Assembly (NCBI RefSeq): GCF_013407835.1
Contig: NZ_JACCBI010000001.1
Span: 682,001-746,000, forward strand
Direction of reading: 5' to 3'
DNA: 64,000 nucleotides
Source of the DNA: Agromyces atrinae
Lineage (GTDB): Bacteria > Actinomycetota > Actinomycetes > Actinomycetales > Microbacteriaceae
Positions 1-57,943 of this stretch are shown here, piece by piece. Within the stretch, counting starts at the first letter, position 1; every line of letters starts with the position of its first letter. The notes under the pieces were generated by a model. The model did no database searches, was not told the DNA's origin, and saw nothing but the letters and a program-made list of their open reading frames with translations. The translations under genes and the position numbers were made by a program.

Positions 1-635
1 TCGTGTCCGAAGAGGTGCCACCGACCGTCGTGCAGCACGACGGCGTACGGCTCGACGGTGCGCGTGCGCGGTGCCGCCTCGCCGGGCTTGAGGTAGCCGA
101 ACCGGGCGAGCTGGCGCCGGTCGACGGCGACGCTCAGCGGCTCGAATGCAGCATCACGCACACGGAGCTTCGGCGCGTAGCCGATGACCCATTCCTGCGA
201 CTCGATGCCGAACGAGCGGAGCTTGGTCAGCGCTCGTCTCGACTCCGTCGAGAGTGAGCCCTCACGCCAGACCGTGGCGGCGAGACCGAGGAGCGAGAGC
301 TCTTCCGGAGAGAACGTGATGTCGGACGGGAGGTCGTAGAGACCCTTCGGGATCCGATACCGCGCCGTGCGGTTGTCGCCCGGGCTGTCGGGCGAGTCGA
401 TCGTCTCGATCGGAATACCCAGTTCGCGGATGTCGTCCTTGTCGCGCTCGAACTGACGCTCGAGGCTCGCGTTCTGACCGCCGTGCTCGTGACGTTGGCT
501 GTAGCCGTGCACCGTCGAGAGGATCTGCGACTTCGTCAGGCCGGTCTCGGTCGCGAGGAGCGCGAGCACCAGGCTGAAGAGACGCTCCTCGACGGGCACG
601 GGAGGCTCGCTCGATGAGGCTCGGTTCGCAGGCAC
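1..635 (-). CDS. pafB: WYL-domain transcriptional regulator, PafB-like (3' end outside window)
   Basis: The frame is open from a GTG at 633-635 to the window edge, about 211 codons, so the C-terminus is missing. The N-terminus is a helix-turn-helix (residues about 10-70, with QILSTVHGY and LERQFERDKDDIRELGIPIE), followed by the start of a WYL domain. This matches the PafB/PafC family, heterodimeric activators of the LexA-independent DNA-damage regulon in actinobacteria. The order trmI / FKBP gene / this gene matches the chromosomal place of pafBC. PafB rather than PafC is inferred from position (first of the pair in transcription order). The GTG start is favoured because a TAAGAT hexamer lies 7 bases upstream and there is no ribosome binding site, which suggests a leaderless mRNA. 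Confidence 0.8.
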   Translation of the reverse strand, partial: MPANRASSSEPPVPVEERLFSLVLALLATETGLTKSQILSTVHGYSQRHEHGGQNASLERQFERDKDDIRELGIPIETIDSPDSPGDNRTARYRIPKGLYDLPSDITFSPEELSLLGLAATVWREGSLSTESRRALTKLRSFGIESQEWVIGYAPKLRVRDAAFEPLSVAVDRRQLARFGYLKPGEAAPRTRTVEPYAVVLHDGRWHLFGH

Positions 636-7729: not shown

Positions 7730-8428
7730 CTAGGGCTGGAGCGGGAGGATGAGTTCGGGACCGTTGCCGCGGAGGGGCGCGACCTCGTGCAGCTCGAGCC
7801 CGGAGACGACCTCGTGCGAGGCGTCGACGGCCGCGTCGACGAGATCTTGGTCGCCCTCGGTCTCGGGGTCGAGCCAGGTGTCCCAGTACTCGGGGGGCAG
7901 CATGACCGGGGTGCGTGGGTGGATGTCGGCCAGGGCACCGGTCGCGTCGGTCGTCAGGATCGTGGCGGAGAGCACCCAGCGCGCGGGGTCGTCATCGGCC
8001 TTCGTCGGATCGCGCCACCACGAGTAGAGTCCGGCGAACGCCAGGACGCCCTCGGGCGGGTGGATGAAGAACGGCGTCTTCGTCTTCTCGACGGTCTGCC
8101 ACTCGTAGTAGCCCTCGGCGGGGATGAGGGCGCGCTTGGACGCGACGGACGCACGGAAGCTCGCCTTCTCGGTGATGCCCTCGGCGCGCGCGTTGAACGT
8201 CGGGTATGGCAGCGTGAGCTCTTTCGCGAAACTCGGCACGAGCGACCATCGTGCCGATTCGAGCCGCCTGACGACGGGGCCGCCCTTGTTCGACTCGAGG
8301 ACGACGGCGATCGGGTCGGTCGGTGCGATGTTCCACGAGGGATCGGGCAGGGCCTCCCCCGCCTCATCGATGTCGAAGAGAGCGACGAGATCGGGGGCCG
8401 TATCGGAGATGACGAAGCGTCCGCACAT
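7730..8428 (-). CDS. SRAP domain protein (SOS response-associated peptidase, YedK/HMCES-type)
   Basis: 232 residues starting MCGRFV. After removal of Met the N-terminal Cys2 is the residue that forms a thiazolidine crosslink with abasic sites in single-stranded DNA. Other family markers are IAPTD, the conserved Asn in FNARAEGI, RALIPAEGYYEW with the catalytic Glu, and the final HPRTPVMLPP segment with the active-site His. It shields abasic sites at stalled forks. It is divergent from imuA. Its own promoter matches the PafBC-dependent RecA-NDp consensus (8435-8457) and places the start at the ATG itself. Confidence 0.93.
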   Translation of the reverse strand: MCGRFVISDTAPDLVALFDIDEAGEALPDPSWNIAPTDPIAVVLESNKGGPVVRRLESARWSLVPSFAKELTLPYPTFNARAEGITEKASFRASVASKRALIPAEGYYEWQTVEKTKTPFFIHPPEGVLAFAGLYSWWRDPTKADDDPARWVLSATILTTDATGALADIHPRTPVMLPPEYWDTWLDPETEGDQDLVDAAVDASHEVVSGLELHEVAPLRGNGPELILPLQP

Positions 8429-8434
8429 GCCGAC

Positions 8435-8457
8435 AGGCTATCGGCCCGCACTGACAG
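8435..8457 (-). promoter_or_regulatory. RecA-NDp-type (PafBC-dependent) promoter of the SRAP gene
   Basis: The minus strand reads CTGTCAGTG, then 8 bases, then TAGCCT, then 6 bases to the ATG at 8428. The published mycobacterial consensus is tTGTCRGTG-N8-TAnnnT; 8 of 9 upstream positions, the spacer length and the -10 agree. PafBC dependence is inferred. Confidence 0.7.
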
Positions 8458-8512
8458 GAGCCCGGACGCGGGCCGGTCGACACATCGGTGGAGCGCGACA
8501 CACCGGGCGGAC

Positions 8513-8541
8513 TTGACGCATTCGAACATGTGTTCGAACAT
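8513..8541 (+). promoter_or_regulatory. Candidate imuA-imuB-dnaE2 promoter
   Basis: TTGACG (8513-8518), 17-base spacer, GAACAT (8536-8541), only 5 bases before the ATG at 8547. The spacer and -10 are covered by the LexA box. If this promoter is used the mRNA would be almost leaderless. The -10 match is modest. Confidence 0.5.
8522..8537 (+). promoter_or_regulatory. LexA operator (SOS box)
   Basis: TCGAAC-ATGT-GTTCGA matches the actinobacterial/Gram-positive LexA operator TCGAAC-N4-GTTCGA at all defined positions. It overlaps the imuA promoter 9 bases before the ATG, so LexA would block transcription of the whole cassette until RecA-stimulated cleavage. The SRAP -10 is about 80 bases away, so direct control of that gene is less likely. 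Confidence 0.92.
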
Positions 8542-8546
8542 GGAGT

Positions 8547-9302
8547 ATGACCTCGCTCGCCCCCTCGATAGCCGTCGACGACGGTGTCTCACGAGACGGT
8601 AGGGCGAGTGTAGGCGCACGCGGTGACACCGTGCGCGAACTCCAGTCCCGCATCCGCGGCATGCAGGCGACGAAGCTCGACTCCCGAGCCGTCCCGACGA
8701 CGCCGGCGCTCACTCGCGCCCTCGGCGGCAGCATGCGAGAGGGCTCGGTCTACAGCGTCGCGGGATCGACGAGCCTCATCATGAGCTTCCTCGCCGGACC
8801 GTCCGAGGCCGGCCGGTGGTGCGCGGTCGTCGGCTTCCCCGACTTCGGCATCGAAGCAGCAACCCGCTTCGGCATCGACCTGGATCGCCTCGTCCTCGTC
8901 CCTCGCCCCGGGCGGCATTGGCTCGAGGTCGTTGCGGCTCTCGCCGACGTCATCCCCGTCGTCGCCGTCAAGGCACTCGACCGGGTCACCCCCGGCGAGG
9001 CGTCCCGCCTGGCCGCCCGGCTCCGCGAACGGGGCACGACGCTCGTCGTCGACGGGAACTGGCCGCAGACCGAGGCCCGGGTGAGTCTCGGTGAGAGCAC
9101 GTGGGGCGGGCTCGGCCGGGGCCACGGCCAGCTCGACTCCCGACGGGCGACGGTGCGCGTGGCCGGGCGAGGCGGCTTCGAACGCGCACGCGAGACCGAG
9201 CTGTGGCTGCCCGAACGGTCGCGACCGGGGCACCGGCCCTCCGCCGAGCCCGACGACGGTCGGCTGCGCATGATCCCGCTCCCTGAGAGGGCCGCAGGAT
9301 GA
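8547..9302 (+). CDS. imuA: ImuA'-like accessory protein of the translesion mutasome
   Basis: 251 residues from ATG 8547. It is a RecA-like, catalytically minimal protein: VRELQSRIRGMQATKLDSR at the N-terminus, then REGSVYSVAGSTSLIMSFLA where a RecA Walker A would be, without the canonical GKT lysine. In actinobacteria ImuA' (ImuA-like) works with ImuB and DnaE2 in damage-induced mutagenesis. The start is uncertain: ATG 8547 fits the promoter, while a GTG at 8631 begins nearer the conserved region. It overlaps imuB by 4 bases and sits under a perfect LexA box. Confidence 0.85.
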   Translation: MTSLAPSIAVDDGVSRDGRASVGARGDTVRELQSRIRGMQATKLDSRAVPTTPALTRALGGSMREGSVYSVAGSTSLIMSFLAGPSEAGRWCAVVGFPDFGIEAATRFGIDLDRLVLVPRPGRHWLEVVAALADVIPVVAVKALDRVTPGEASRLAARLRERGTTLVVDGNWPQTEARVSLGESTWGGLGRGHGQLDSRRATVRVAGRGGFERARETELWLPERSRPGHRPSAEPDDGRLRMIPLPERAAG

Positions 9303-10879
9303 CCGCCGACCGAACGATCGTGCTGTGGTGCCCCGACTGGCCCGTCATCGCGGCGATCACCGCAGAGCGCCTCTCCCCCGACGCCCCCGTCGCGCTCATC
9401 GAGAAGGGTCTCGTCTTCGCCTCGTCGGCATCCGCTCGGCGTGAGGGCGTCATCCGGGGTCTCCGCGTGCGTGAGGCGCAGTACCGCTGTCCCGACGTCA
9501 TCGTGCTGCCGTACGACGTCGCGCTCGATGCGCGGGCCTTCGAGCCCGTGCTCCGCGTCGTCGAAGAAGCGGTCCCCGCCGTGCAGGTCGTGCGGCCGGG
9601 CGCGCTCGCGATGCGGGCTCGAGGGCCGGCCCGGTACTACGGGGGCGAAGCCGAAGCCGCTCGGGCACTTCTCGCGACCGTTCGCGAGGCCGAGGCGGTC
9701 GAGGCCTGCGTCGGTGTCGCCGACGGGCTCCTGGCGGCCGAGCAGGCCGCTCGTGCGGCGATCAGGGTGCCCGGGAGCGATCAGGCGCAGCCCCCTGTCT
9801 TCATCGTCGCCGAGGGATCCGCCGCGAGCTTCCTCGCACCCCTGCCCGTCTCCCTCGTGACGACCGCGAGCACGGCGACGCTCCTCCACCGCTTGGGAGT
9901 CCGTTCGCTCGGCGAGTTCGCTGCGCTCCCCGCGGCCGACGTGCTGCGTCGGTTCGGCCCGGAGGGTGCGCTCGCCCATGCCCGGGCCGGGGCCCGCGAC
10001 GGAGCCCGGGTGGTGCCGAGGTCGCTCCCTCCCGAGTTCGAGATCACCATCGATTTCGAACCTCCGCTCGACCGCATCGACAGCGTCGCCTTCGCCATCC
10101 GTGCTCGCGCCGACGAGTTCATCGATCGGATGCGAGCCGTCAGGCTCGTCTGCACGGGTCTCAGGGTCGAGGTCCACGACGACCGGGGTCAGGTCTCGAC
10201 GCGCATCTGGCTGCATCCGCGGTGGTTCTCGGCCCCCGAGGTCGTCGATCGCGTCCGGTGGCAGCTGCAGGGCTCCGGAAGCGAACGAACAGCCGGCAGC
10301 GGCGAGTCCTCCCTCGGATCCCCGATCGCTCGGGTGCACTTCTTCCCCGAGCGCGTCGATTCGACGGGCAACCACGAAGAGGGCCTGTGGGGCTCCGGGC
10401 CCGACGAACGCGTGCACCACGGGCTCTCGCGTGTGCAGAGCATCCTCGGGCACGAGGGAGTGCTCACACCGACCCTCGGCGGCGGCCGCATGCTCGCCGA
10501 TCGTCAGGTGCTCGTCCCGTGGGGAGACCGGGCGCCCGCGGGAACCGCCGACCGCCCCTGGCCGGGCCGTATCGCCGAACTGGTCCCGTCGACCGTGTAC
10601 ACCGACCGGGTCGGCGTCTCGCTCCGCATCGCCGACGGTTCTCCGCTCTCACTCGATGATCGCGGCGTCGCGAACGGCGCGCCCGAGTCCTTCACCGACC
10701 CCGACTACCGCGAGTTCGCCGTCCGCGCGTGGGCCGGCCCCTGGCCCGTCGTCGAACGCTGGTGGGACGCGGAGAACGCCCGCCGCATCCATCGGTTCCA
10801 GATCATCGACGACTCGGGAACGGCCTGGCTGCTCGTGCGCGACGGCGATCGCTGGTGGGCCGAAGCGAGGTACGACTGA
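9299..10879 (+). CDS. imuB: ImuB, catalytically inactive Y-family polymerase-like protein
   Basis: 526 residues. The N-terminus reads LWCPDWPVIAA where active Y-family polymerases carry the DMDAFF metal-binding motif, and the SIDE-type acidic pair is not seen either. ImuB is a hub rather than a polymerase: it binds the beta clamp, ImuA' and DnaE2. The little-finger region lies at about 250-350, followed by a long C-terminal extension (about 350-526) with WPGRIAELVPSTVY and the final tryptophan-rich DGDRWWAEARYD. It overlaps imuA (4 bases) and dnaE2 (1 base), so the cassette is one translationally coupled operon. Confidence 0.92.
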   Translation: MTADRTIVLWCPDWPVIAAITAERLSPDAPVALIEKGLVFASSASARREGVIRGLRVREAQYRCPDVIVLPYDVALDARAFEPVLRVVEEAVPAVQVVRPGALAMRARGPARYYGGEAEAARALLATVREAEAVEACVGVADGLLAAEQAARAAIRVPGSDQAQPPVFIVAEGSAASFLAPLPVSLVTTASTATLLHRLGVRSLGEFAALPAADVLRRFGPEGALAHARAGARDGARVVPRSLPPEFEITIDFEPPLDRIDSVAFAIRARADEFIDRMRAVRLVCTGLRVEVHDDRGQVSTRIWLHPRWFSAPEVVDRVRWQLQGSGSERTAGSGESSLGSPIARVHFFPERVDSTGNHEEGLWGSGPDERVHHGLSRVQSILGHEGVLTPTLGGGRMLADRQVLVPWGDRAPAGTADRPWPGRIAELVPSTVYTDRVGVSLRIADGSPLSLDDRGVANGAPESFTDPDYREFAVRAWAGPWPVVERWWDAENARRIHRFQIIDDSGTAWLLVRDGDRWWAEARYD

Positions 10880-13800
10880 TGGGCTTCAGCAATCCCCCGA
10901 TCCCCTGGTCCGATCTCGAACGCTCACTGTCGGAGAGATCGCGGCCCGGGCAACGCGCCGTGATCGCCGACGGCGGTGACTCGCCCGCGTGGAGCAGGAA
11001 GCGCCAGCCGTACCGACCCCACGACGACCTCGACACTCCCGACGGGCCCGTGGTCCCCTATGCCGAGCTGCACGTGCACTCGAACTTCAGCTTCCTCGAC
11101 GGTGCGAGTCAGCCCGAGCACCTCGTCGAAGAGGCCCACCGACTCGGCCTCTCGGGGCTCGCTCTGACCGACCACGACGGCTTCTACGGAGCGGTGCGCT
11201 TCGCCGAGGCCGCCGAAAGCCACCCGAGTCTCGGCACCGTGTTCGGCGCCGAGCTCTCCCTCGGGCTCACGGCTCCGCAGAACGGCGTCCCCGACCCCGA
11301 GGGCCCGCACCTCCTCGCTCTCGCCCGCGGCGAGGAGGGGTACCACCGGCTCGCGGGAGCGATCACGAACGGCCAGCTCGACGGCGGCGAGAAAGGGCGC
11401 CCGGTCTACGACCTCGATCGGCTCGCCGACGAAGCCGCCGGCACGTGGGCGATCCTCAGCGGATGCCGGAAGGGCAGTGTGCGCCGCGCCCTCGACGAAC
11501 GCGGCGCCGAGGCGGCCGAGCACGAGCTCGTGCGACTCGGCGAACGGTTCGGCCGCGACAACGTCTTCGTCGAGCTCTTCGACCACGGTCATCCCCACGA
11601 CCAGTCGACCAACGAGGTGCTCGCCGGTCTCGCGCGCGAGCTCGGACTCCCGACCCTCGCGACGAACGTCGTGCACTTCGCCGCCCCGAAGGACCACCGG
11701 TTGGCCCAGGCCCTCGCGGCGGTCCGCGCGCGACGCAGCCTCGACGAGCTCGACGGCTGGCTCCCGGCGACCGATCTCATGCACCTGCGGAGCGGCGCGG
11801 AGATGGCGGCGCGCTTCTCCCGTCATCCCGACGCCGTCTCCCGCACCGTCGAACTCGCCGACGAACTCTCCTTCACCCTGCGCAGTGCGCGTCCGAACCT
11901 GCCGAAGCAAGACGTACCGCCGGGGCACACGCCGATGAGCTGGCTCCGCGAACTCGTCTGGCGCGGAGCCGCCGCACGCTACCCCGGGCTGCCCGACGGG
12001 CACCGAGCCCGTCTCGAACGCGAGCTCGACGTCATCGAGGAGAAAGACTTCCCCGGCTACTTCCTCATCGTCTACGACATCGTCCGAGAGGCGCGCTCCC
12101 GCGGCATCCTCTGTCAGGGGCGGGGGTCGGCCGCGAACTCGGCGATCTGCTTCGTGCTCGATATCACCGCCGTCGACTCGATCTTCTTCGACCTGCCGTT
12201 CGAACGCTTCCTCTCGAGCCTCCGCGAAGAGGCGCCCGACATCGACGTCGATTTCGACTCCGACCGGCGGGAGGAGATCATCCAGTACGTCTATGCGAAG
12301 TACGGCAGGCGGAACGCCGCGCAGGTCGCGAACGTCATCAGCTATCGCCCGAAGGTCGCGGTGCGCGACATGGCGAAGGCCCTCGGGTATTCGACGGGTC
12401 AGCAGGACGCCTGGTCGCGGCAGGTCGAGCGCTGGGGCGCCGAGATCGCGAGCATCGAGCACGACATCCCCGCGCCCGTCGTGGGACTCGCCGAGAGCCT
12501 GCTCGGTTTCCCCCGTCACCTCGGCATCCATTCGGGCGGCATGGTGCTCACCGATCGGCCGGTAGGCGAGGTCTGCCCGATCGAGCACGCGCGCAAGGAG
12601 AACCGCACCGTCCTGCAATGGGACAAGGACGACTGCGCCTGGATGGGACTCGTGAAGTTCGACCTTCTCGGTCTCGGCATGCTCGCCGCCCTGCAGTACA
12701 CCTTCGACCTCATCCGCGATGCGACGGGTGAGAGCTGGGATCTCGTCTCGATCCCGAAGGAGGAGCCCGGGGTCTACGACATGCTGTGCCGCGCCGATTC
12801 GATCGGCGTCTTCCAGGTCGAGAGCCGCGCACAGATGGGCACGTTGCCGCGGCTCCAACCGCGGCGCTTCTACGACCTCGTGGTCGAGATCGCGCTCATC
12901 CGCCCCGGCCCCGTGCAGGGCGGCGCCGTGCATCCCTACATCCGCCGGGCGACGGGGCAGGAACCCATCACCTATCTGCATCCGAAGCTCGAGCCCGTGC
13001 TGCACCGCACGATGGGCGTGCCCCTCTTCCAGGAGCAGCTCATGCAGATGGCCGTCGCCGTCGGAGACTGCACGGCGGAGGACGCCGACCTGCTGCGCCG
13101 GGCCATGGGCTCCAAGCGCGGGATCGAGAAGATCTCGAAACTCAAGGACAAGCTCTACGCGGGCATGGAGAGGAACGGCATCCCGCTCGAGACCGCCGAC
13201 ACGATCTACGCGAAGATCGAGGCGTTCGCGAACTTCGGCTTCGCCGAGAGCCACGCGATCAGCTTCGGGGTGCTCGTGTACGCGAGCTCCTGGCTGAAGC
13301 TGCACTACCCCGCGGCCTTCCTCGCCGCGCTCCTCCGCGCACAGCCCATGGGCTTCTACTCGCCGCAGACGTTGACGGCCGATGCGCACCGGCACGGTGT
13401 CGAGACCCGACGCCCCGACATCGCACGCTCGGGCGCGCAGGCCGTACTCGAACGGATGACGGACGGCGACGCGTCTCCCAGCGGGCGCGATTCGTGCACC
13501 GACGCGCTGCAGCCCCCGGTGGGTCTCTTCGACCGCGGGGCTCCGTCCGAAGCCGCGGCCCACCGACGCGACGCGGCATTCGCCGTGCGTCTCGGTCTCG
13601 CCGATGTGAAGGGCATCGGGCACGAGCTTGCCGAGCGCATCGTCGCCGAGCGCGAGGCCGACGGCCCGTATCGCGACATGGCCGACCTCGCTCGGCGCGT
13701 GGGGCTCTCGACCGAGCAGCTCGAGTCGCTCGCAGCCGCCGGTGCCTTCGAGAGCTTCGCGTTGCAGCCGCGTGAGGCGCTCTGGATGGCCGGTGAGGCC

Positions 13801-14283
13801 TCTCAGGACCGTGCCGACTTCCTGCCGGGTGCGGTCGTCGTCGTGCAGCCGCCCCTGCTCGAGATGCTCTCCCCCGCCGAACAGGTCGTCTATGACCTGT
13901 GGTCGATGGCCATCTCGCCCGGCGACCACCCCATCCGCTACGTCCGCGAACGTCTCGATGTGCGCGGAGCCATCAGGATCGATCGGTTGAGCTCCGCACA
14001 CTCGGGCAGACGTATCGAGGTGGGCGGTGTCGTCACCCACCGTCAACGACCGGCGACGGCCGGTGGCATCACGTTCCTGAACCTCGAGGACGAATCGGGA
14101 ACGCTCAACGTCATCGCGGGGGTCGGGGTCTGGAACCGGTATCGGCGGGTCGCGCGTGAAGCTCCCGCGATGATCGTGCGGGGGATCCTCGAACGCTCCC
14201 GTGAGGGGGTCACGAACCTCGTCGCCGATCGTTTCGAGTCGCTCACCGTGTCGGCACCGCATCGCTCGCGTGACTTCCGGTGA
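10879..14283 (+). CDS. dnaE2: Error-prone DNA polymerase III alpha subunit DnaE2 (ImuC)
   Basis: 1134 residues from the ATG whose A is the last base of the imuB stop. A PHP domain begins near residue 60 (ELHVHSNFSFLDGAS, ALTDHDGFYG). The C-family palm carries the catalytic aspartates in PDIDVDFDSDRR near 453, with GRGSAANSAICF before it. The fingers/thumb region follows, a helix-hairpin-helix segment (VKGIGHELAERIVAERE) lies near 915, and the C-terminal OB fold is near 1045 (IEVGGVVTHRQRP). DnaE2 lacks proofreading and extends past lesions with ImuB. The neighbours confirm the mutasome assignment over replicative DnaE1. Confidence 0.96.
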   Translation: MGFSNPPIPWSDLERSLSERSRPGQRAVIADGGDSPAWSRKRQPYRPHDDLDTPDGPVVPYAELHVHSNFSFLDGASQPEHLVEEAHRLGLSGLALTDHDGFYGAVRFAEAAESHPSLGTVFGAELSLGLTAPQNGVPDPEGPHLLALARGEEGYHRLAGAITNGQLDGGEKGRPVYDLDRLADEAAGTWAILSGCRKGSVRRALDERGAEAAEHELVRLGERFGRDNVFVELFDHGHPHDQSTNEVLAGLARELGLPTLATNVVHFAAPKDHRLAQALAAVRARRSLDELDGWLPATDLMHLRSGAEMAARFSRHPDAVSRTVELADELSFTLRSARPNLPKQDVPPGHTPMSWLRELVWRGAAARYPGLPDGHRARLERELDVIEEKDFPGYFLIVYDIVREARSRGILCQGRGSAANSAICFVLDITAVDSIFFDLPFERFLSSLREEAPDIDVDFDSDRREEIIQYVYAKYGRRNAAQVANVISYRPKVAVRDMAKALGYSTGQQDAWSRQVERWGAEIASIEHDIPAPVVGLAESLLGFPRHLGIHSGGMVLTDRPVGEVCPIEHARKENRTVLQWDKDDCAWMGLVKFDLLGLGMLAALQYTFDLIRDATGESWDLVSIPKEEPGVYDMLCRADSIGVFQVESRAQMGTLPRLQPRRFYDLVVEIALIRPGPVQGGAVHPYIRRATGQEPITYLHPKLEPVLHRTMGVPLFQEQLMQMAVAVGDCTAEDADLLRRAMGSKRGIEKISKLKDKLYAGMERNGIPLETADTIYAKIEAFANFGFAESHAISFGVLVYASSWLKLHYPAAFLAALLRAQPMGFYSPQTLTADAHRHGVETRRPDIARSGAQAVLERMTDGDASPSGRDSCTDALQPPVGLFDRGAPSEAAAHRRDAAFAVRLGLADVKGIGHELAERIVAEREADGPYRDMADLARRVGLSTEQLESLAAAGAFESFALQPREALWMAGEASQDRADFLPGAVVVVQPPLLEMLSPAEQVVYDLWSMAISPGDHPIRYVRERLDVRGAIRIDRLSSAHSGRRIEVGGVVTHRQRPATAGGITFLNLEDESGTLNVIAGVGVWNRYRRVAREAPAMIVRGILERSREGVTNLVADRFESLTVSAPHRSRDFR

Positions 14284-18806: not shown

Positions 18807-18829
18807 AACCTACCTGATGCCTCTGACAC
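18807..18829 (-). promoter_or_regulatory. RecA-NDp-like promoter of the helicase gene
   Basis: The minus strand reads GTGTCAGAG, 8 bases, TAGGTT, then 8 bases to GTG 18798. That is 7 of 9 positions of tTGTCRGTG with exact N8 spacing and a TAnnnT hexamer. PafBC control is inferred. Confidence 0.5.

Positions 18830-55518: not shown

Positions 55519-57943
<2,425 letters not shown>

Follow-up and report, generated by a model that had tools for sequence, protein, structure and literature searches.

The locus described here raises the question of which DNA-damage regulator switches on an SRAP (YedK/HMCES-type) gene that shares its upstream region with a divergent imuA', imuB and dnaE2 mutasome operon. 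It lies in a window of 64,000 nucleotides (C1:682001–746000) of the Agromyces atrinae genome, which comprises 3.65 Mb in a single contig, and the start codons of SRAP and imuA' are separated by 118 bases (8429–8546; Table 1). The main texts searched state no regulator that switches on SRAP in actinobacteria, nor do they name SRAP as a target of PafBC, and the regulon tables of the mycobacterial papers may well contain it. MSMEG_1891 and Rv3226c, which we take to be the relevant mycobacterial locus tags, were used in this comparison with the SRAP literature. Operons that combine SRAP with imuA, imuB and dnaE2 have been known since 2013, and SRAP is tied to the SOS response through its gene neighbours (PMC3765255). 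No paper containing both PafBC and SRAP was found in the open literature searched, and one that contains both PafBC and YedK mentions the latter for its chemistry (PMC11323726). Judging from the features collected below, SRAP is very probably a direct target of PafBC, set apart at this locus from the mutasome, which carries the LexA box.

Table 1. Coordinates of the features discussed, as positions of the 64,000-nucleotide window
Feature	Position	Strand	Basis or remark
pafB (N-terminal part; gene continues left of the window)	1–635	-	Frame; WYL and WCX domains
SRAP (YedK/HMCES-type), 232 aa	7730–8428	-	PF02586 profile, E 1.7e-58
SRAP start codon ATG and predicted (leaderless) transcription start	8426–8428	-	6 bases past the -10 hexamer; transcription start predicted
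PafBC-type promoter	8435–8457	-	-26 element TGTCAGTG at 8456–8449, N8, -10 TAGCCT at 8440–8435
LexA (SOS) box CGAACATGTGTTCG	8523–8536		Ahead of imuA', 10 bases before the imuA' ATG
imuA', divergent from SRAP	8547–9302	+	NF058630, E 6.6e-52, 175.3 bits versus cut-off of 65
imuB	9299–10879	+	PF00817, E 3.8e-14; named from its place between imuA' and dnaE2
dnaE2 (open frame)	10729–14283	+	NF004225 error-prone DNA polymerase, 1428.1 bits versus cut-off of 939

The SRAP protein scores 198.1 bits against PF02586, for which the curated cut-off is 27.1. In an alignment to the PDB chains of YedK, its C2, N79, E109 and H170 correspond to C2, N75, E105 and H160; the N-terminal cysteine and the Asn, Glu and His residues of the active site are all present. 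YedK crosslinks to abasic sites via Cys2, and HMCES inhibits mutagenic translesion synthesis (PMC9436759). Because SRAP chemistry depends on Cys2, the start of the gene is placed at 8428 (PMC9436759). By homology, the window SRAP would be expected to crosslink to abasic sites in single-stranded DNA, and it probably shields these sites there. The genus holds SRAP types that are unlike one another: proteins 71–75% identical to the window SRAP are found in five other genomes, a few others are 47–55% identical, and most of the other genomes encode proteins at 32–41% identity.

Read directly on the minus strand, CTGTCAGTG (8457–8449) is followed by 8 bases, TAGCCT, 6 bases and the ATG (8428–8426). 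This is the arrangement that the first-pass annotation of this DNA had described, and its placement of the LexA box at 94 bases from the SRAP ATG is also correct. Its further statement that mycobacterial PafBC promoters take this form is borne out for M. tuberculosis, in which the motif is given as TGTCGG, TGTCAG or TGTCAC followed by 10 bases, TA, 3 bases and T, and in which its direction matters (PMC8151990). The SRAP site conforms to the published form (TGTCRG, 10 bases, TANNNT; PMC8151990), is oriented toward the gene and lies at a fitting distance from its start. It predicts a leaderless transcript that starts at or beside the ATG. The pattern TGTCRGTG-N8-TANNNT has a single exact match in the window, namely the SRAP site. 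Three matches appear in the window once one mismatch is allowed; shuffled versions average 0.28, and not one of 100 has as many as three. Sites that are one mismatch off the PafBC form are located at 18807–18828 and 57577–57598, both on the minus strand. A second loose match in the SRAP direction (TGTCAC-N10-TACACT, at -200 in the window) is taken as chance, as is a loose match in the same direction at -80 in locus L048.

The putative regulator is encoded beside the window. To the left of it, pafB is followed by pafC (PF19187, E 3.9e-30), a TatA-like frame named by the look of its sequence, and tatC (TatC domain), and pafB, pafC and tatC stand in one run. The order pafB-pafC-tatA-tatC is known from mycobacteria. 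This genome contains one PafC-type match, which is the one within the pafB-pafC-tatC locus. The presence of a PafC-type domain was rejected as a test of PafBC dependence, since 383 of the 394 genomes of the class have a match, many of them several, and it does not discriminate.

Over the whole genome, there are 18 exact PafBC-type matches versus none for the pattern read backwards. Seven of these sites precede look-alike DUF222-HNH-type genes, so that about a dozen of the 18 loci are independent. The DUF222-HNH assignment was made by Pfam for L002 and L008, and by common protein starts for L012, L014, L016, L017 and L019. L002 and L019 have one site sequence in common, and TGTCRGTGGTTCGAACTAGYCT is the site sequence common to L008, L012, L014, L016 and L017. 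Five putative HNH endonuclease genes are described as RecA-dependent in M. tuberculosis (PMC8151990). At 11 of the 18 exact sites, a frame of at least 90 residues starts 6 or 7 bases past the -10 hexamer; leaderless starts are therefore usual for such sites in this genome. The dinB gene (DNA polymerase IV type; L010, C1:1086856–1086877) has an exact site 6 bases ahead of its GTG, the same layout as SRAP, and genes for a UvrD-type helicase (L011) and the DNA polymerase III delta subunit (L004) have exact sites at other start distances; all three were assigned by Pfam. Exact sites are also found ahead of genes without a clear tie to repair, encoding RibD_C, glyoxalase-like and alpha/beta hydrolase proteins. 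The recA gene has TGTCGG-N10-TACGGT at -129, together with weak LexA-like matches (three mismatches or fewer).

A motif scan upstream of SRAP in relatives, the check proposed for this site, found the element conserved, with TGTCRG at -28 or -29 in 22 of 91 upstream regions from the family. These 91 are the best by score among the SRAP matches from 149 family genomes, aligned on the SRAP start codon; G122:C1, with 183 bases upstream, was left out, and G131 was added as a member of the same genus. Over 200 bases, they contain 31 occurrences of TGTCRG, of which 19 are at -28, three at -29 and at most one at any other position, and 69 of the 91 are without it at -28/-29. All 23 upstream regions with TGTC[AG][GC] at -28 have A at -11 and T at -7, the -10 bases having had no part in their selection. 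A strict motif (TGTCRG-N10/11-YANNNT, at any position within 120 bases) and a looser form were scored alongside each other. The genus sample consists of 29 of 30 loci, L058 being left out as its match starts at residue 82. The strict motif is present in 18 of the 91 family sequences, against one on the reverse strand, none in a far stretch and an average of 0.13 (at most 2) in shuffles. In the genus sample it is present in 12 of the 29 loci, against one on the reverse strand and an average of 0.03 (at most 1) in shuffles. The loose motif is present in 28 of the family sequences (3 on the reverse strand; shuffles averaging 1.26, at most 6) and in 25 of the genus loci (1 on the reverse strand; shuffles averaging 0.32, at most 3). 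These counts include related genomes and are not independent of each other. In some other SRAP genes of the same genus, including L062 and L078, the element is found near -50, implying a leader there.

SRAP is present in 377 of the 394 class genomes. A composite pattern, the motif followed by the start of SRAP, matched 39 of the 394, spread over 15 of 137 genera; its reversed control gave 0, and a version with a scrambled -26 element matched none of the 394. The strict composite is missing in 355, and in f26/g110 it was found in none of the genomes listed in the class search. Thirty of the 39 composite loci were examined, and all 30 match the window SRAP; in genome G333, one of the other nine, the composite match lies on a different contig from the one SRAP match of that genome. 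A scan of named genomes gave at least 120 stretches, and 79 of the 80 matches listed combine a SRAP-like protein behind the site with an actinobacterial title, several of the proteins among the 80 being cut by the locus end. By our count, the 79 among the matches listed belong to 32 named genera, and the titles include Microbacterium, Curtobacterium, Cellulomonas, Nocardia, Rhodococcus, Nocardioides, Glycomyces, Mycolicibacterium and Streptomyces. The remaining listed match is a Gammaproteobacteria MAG with a 14-aa frame. Group g95 is taken as mycobacterial, since G361 has the same promoter string as L223 (Mycolicibacterium rhodesiae). The group has the strict motif in nine and the loose motif in 11 of 29 loci (out of 30; L301, in which no start was found, was left out). 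The PafBC signature recurs at the same spot ahead of SRAP in many, not most, of the actinobacteria examined. Given this conservation, SRAP is a good candidate for a core PafBC target, and the claim for the window SRAP is better supported than the claim for SRAP genes in general.

Five g95 loci (L293, L298, L314, L316 and L320) have TGTCGG at -38/-39 together with TGTCAT or TGTCGT at -28/-29, possibly a variant or doubled element. In Microbacterium sp. Marseille-Q6965 (L176), imuB-dnaE2 homology is co-directional with SRAP and ends about 100 bases ahead of it, and SRAP's own PafBC-type site is still present in the gap.

The LexA box is located at the imuA' promoter, with 66 bases between it and the -26 element of SRAP. 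TTGACG (8513–8518) can be read as a possible -35 of imuA', and GAACAT (8536–8541), 5 bases ahead of the ATG, could be its -10. The imuA' gene may then be leaderless too, and in this case the box would sit between -35 and -10. The true start of dnaE2 is perhaps the ATG at 10879; homology begins at residue 108 of the open frame. Six imuA'-divergent SRAP genes, including that of the window, were found regardless of the motif, and all six have TGTC[AG][GC] at -28/-29, five of them as TGTCRG. Together with L185, L206 and L248, which were found through the motif, there are nine such loci, L185 having the same sequence as L051 (100% over 3696 bases). The PafBC site is fixed at -28 or -29 in all nine, and the LexA box ranges from -76 to -130 relative to SRAP in the eight that have one. 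The ninth (L052, genome G170) has imuA' homology about 580 bases off and no LexA box within 260 bases, and its SRAP gene keeps the PafBC site. A LexA box overlapping SRAP's own promoter was thus found neither here nor in G170, at the distances given. At none of the nine loci does the opposite strand of the 260-base SRAP upstream region contain a PafBC-type site pointing to imuA'; this region reaches imuA' in eight of them (not L052), and a site serving imuA' as well was rejected on this count. Forty-four SRAP genes have a site at -28/-29, whatever its grade; a divergent imuA' is present in six of them and has no match in 38 (900–1500 bases examined), and a purely mutasome-linked explanation was rejected accordingly.

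PafBC is reported to be activated by single-stranded DNA and to enable the housekeeping polymerase to work from promoters that have a -26 element (PMC11804915). It is highly probable that the SRAP promoter is PafBC-dependent and of the sigma-A type, with a start at or next to the ATG, and that the divergent mutasome is under LexA, one intergenic region holding two damage circuits. By analogy with mycobacteria, single-stranded DNA that piles up after damage would bind the WYL domains of PafBC, and the activated PafBC would allow the housekeeping polymerase to use the SRAP promoter without a -35 element. The SRAP protein would then be made and would form crosslinks with abasic sites of single-stranded DNA. 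The opposite strand carries the mutasome operon, which would, to judge from its box, be held by LexA. PafBC would thereby be assigned to the shield (SRAP) and LexA to mutagenic bypass, and single-stranded DNA at damaged forks would be both the activator of PafBC and the place where SRAP acts.

Many actinobacterial genes have a leaderless start with TANNNT directly ahead of it, and the SRAP site could in principle be due to chance or be a property that leaderless genes of high-GC genomes generally share. The likelihood of this is close to nil, as the spike is confined to -28/-29, the shuffle and reverse-strand controls are low, and neither the scrambled -26 element in the class nor the backwards pattern in the genome gave a match; a chance origin was rejected on these controls. 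It is also very improbable that the element is read by another regulator, such as ClgR or an additional activator with a WYL domain. Recognition of the P1/RecA-independent motif by ClgR has been reported (cited in PMC5656591), and many genomes of the class hold several PafC-type domain matches. However, the single such match in this genome is at pafB-pafC-tatC, and in mycobacteria crosslinking studies and a structure have assigned both the motif and its -26 element to PafBC (PMC6789036, PMC11804915).

A further explanation is that the LexA box represses both divergent promoters, in which case SRAP would answer to SOS as well as to PafBC. The box does lie within the shared intergenic region, some mycobacterial genes including recA answer to both systems (PMC8223512), the mycobacterial mutasome is reported under both (PMC10421592), and recA in the present genome combines a PafBC-type site with weak LexA-like matches. 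Co-control of SRAP is nevertheless unlikely, given that the box is directly ahead of imuA' and 66 bases away from the -26 element, that it moves between loci and the PafBC site does not, that the site is kept in L052 with no box inside 260 bases, and that 38 of the 44 site-bearing SRAP genes have no divergent imuA' match in the 900–1500 bases examined. The first-pass annotation had assigned SRAP to the PafBC regulon and placed it outside that of LexA. At the level of sequence, the assignment to PafBC is supported by the -28/-29 spike, the invariant A and T of the -10 element, the class-wide composite matches with their scrambled control, the 79 actinobacterial SRAP matches among the 80 listed from named genomes, and the neighbouring pafB-pafC. 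The exclusion from the LexA regulon is favoured indirectly, by the position of the box before imuA', by its variable distance beside a fixed PafBC site, and by G170.

If SRAP is under PafBC, a sensor of single-stranded DNA would directly raise the protein by which abasic sites in such DNA are shielded. A recurrent PafBC promoter would provide a direct and testable answer to the question of SRAP regulation, and it fits the common signal, single-stranded DNA. We tentatively suggest, with somewhat less than even confidence, that SRAP is a widespread and perhaps ancestral PafBC target in Actinomycetota, and that SRAP and the mutasome, where they share an intergenic region, are wired to different sensors. 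Shielding and error-prone bypass would sit on different switches, and a stress acting through PafBC alone could induce the shield and leave the mutagenic polymerase uninduced. Fluoroquinolones have been reported as such a stress in mycobacteria. The split could matter for mutation rates, because HMCES inhibits mutagenic translesion synthesis (PMC9436759).

E. coli YedK and human HMCES share with the window SRAP the SRAP domain and the aligned Cys2, Asn, Glu and His, but differ from it in regulation, and the chemistry of the window protein is a prediction. The mycobacterial PafBC/RecA-NDp promoters (recA P1 and others) resemble the SRAP site in TGTCRG, N10, TANNNT and direction, and in belonging to an actinobacterium with pafB-pafC. 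Here, in contrast, the target is SRAP, the layout is leaderless, and the organism lies outside the mycobacteria in which the regulon was measured. In the SRAP operons described in 2013, SRAP is likewise beside the mutasome (PMC3765255), whereas here it is divergent and has a promoter signature of its own. The mycobacterial imuA'-imuB and dnaE2 are reported to be under both LexA and PafBC (Adefisayo 2021, as cited in PMC10421592). The likeness to the present locus consists of the LexA box at the mutasome and of PafBC in the same damage response; here, however, no PafBC-type site points toward imuA' in the stretches that reach it, and the site would serve SRAP instead.
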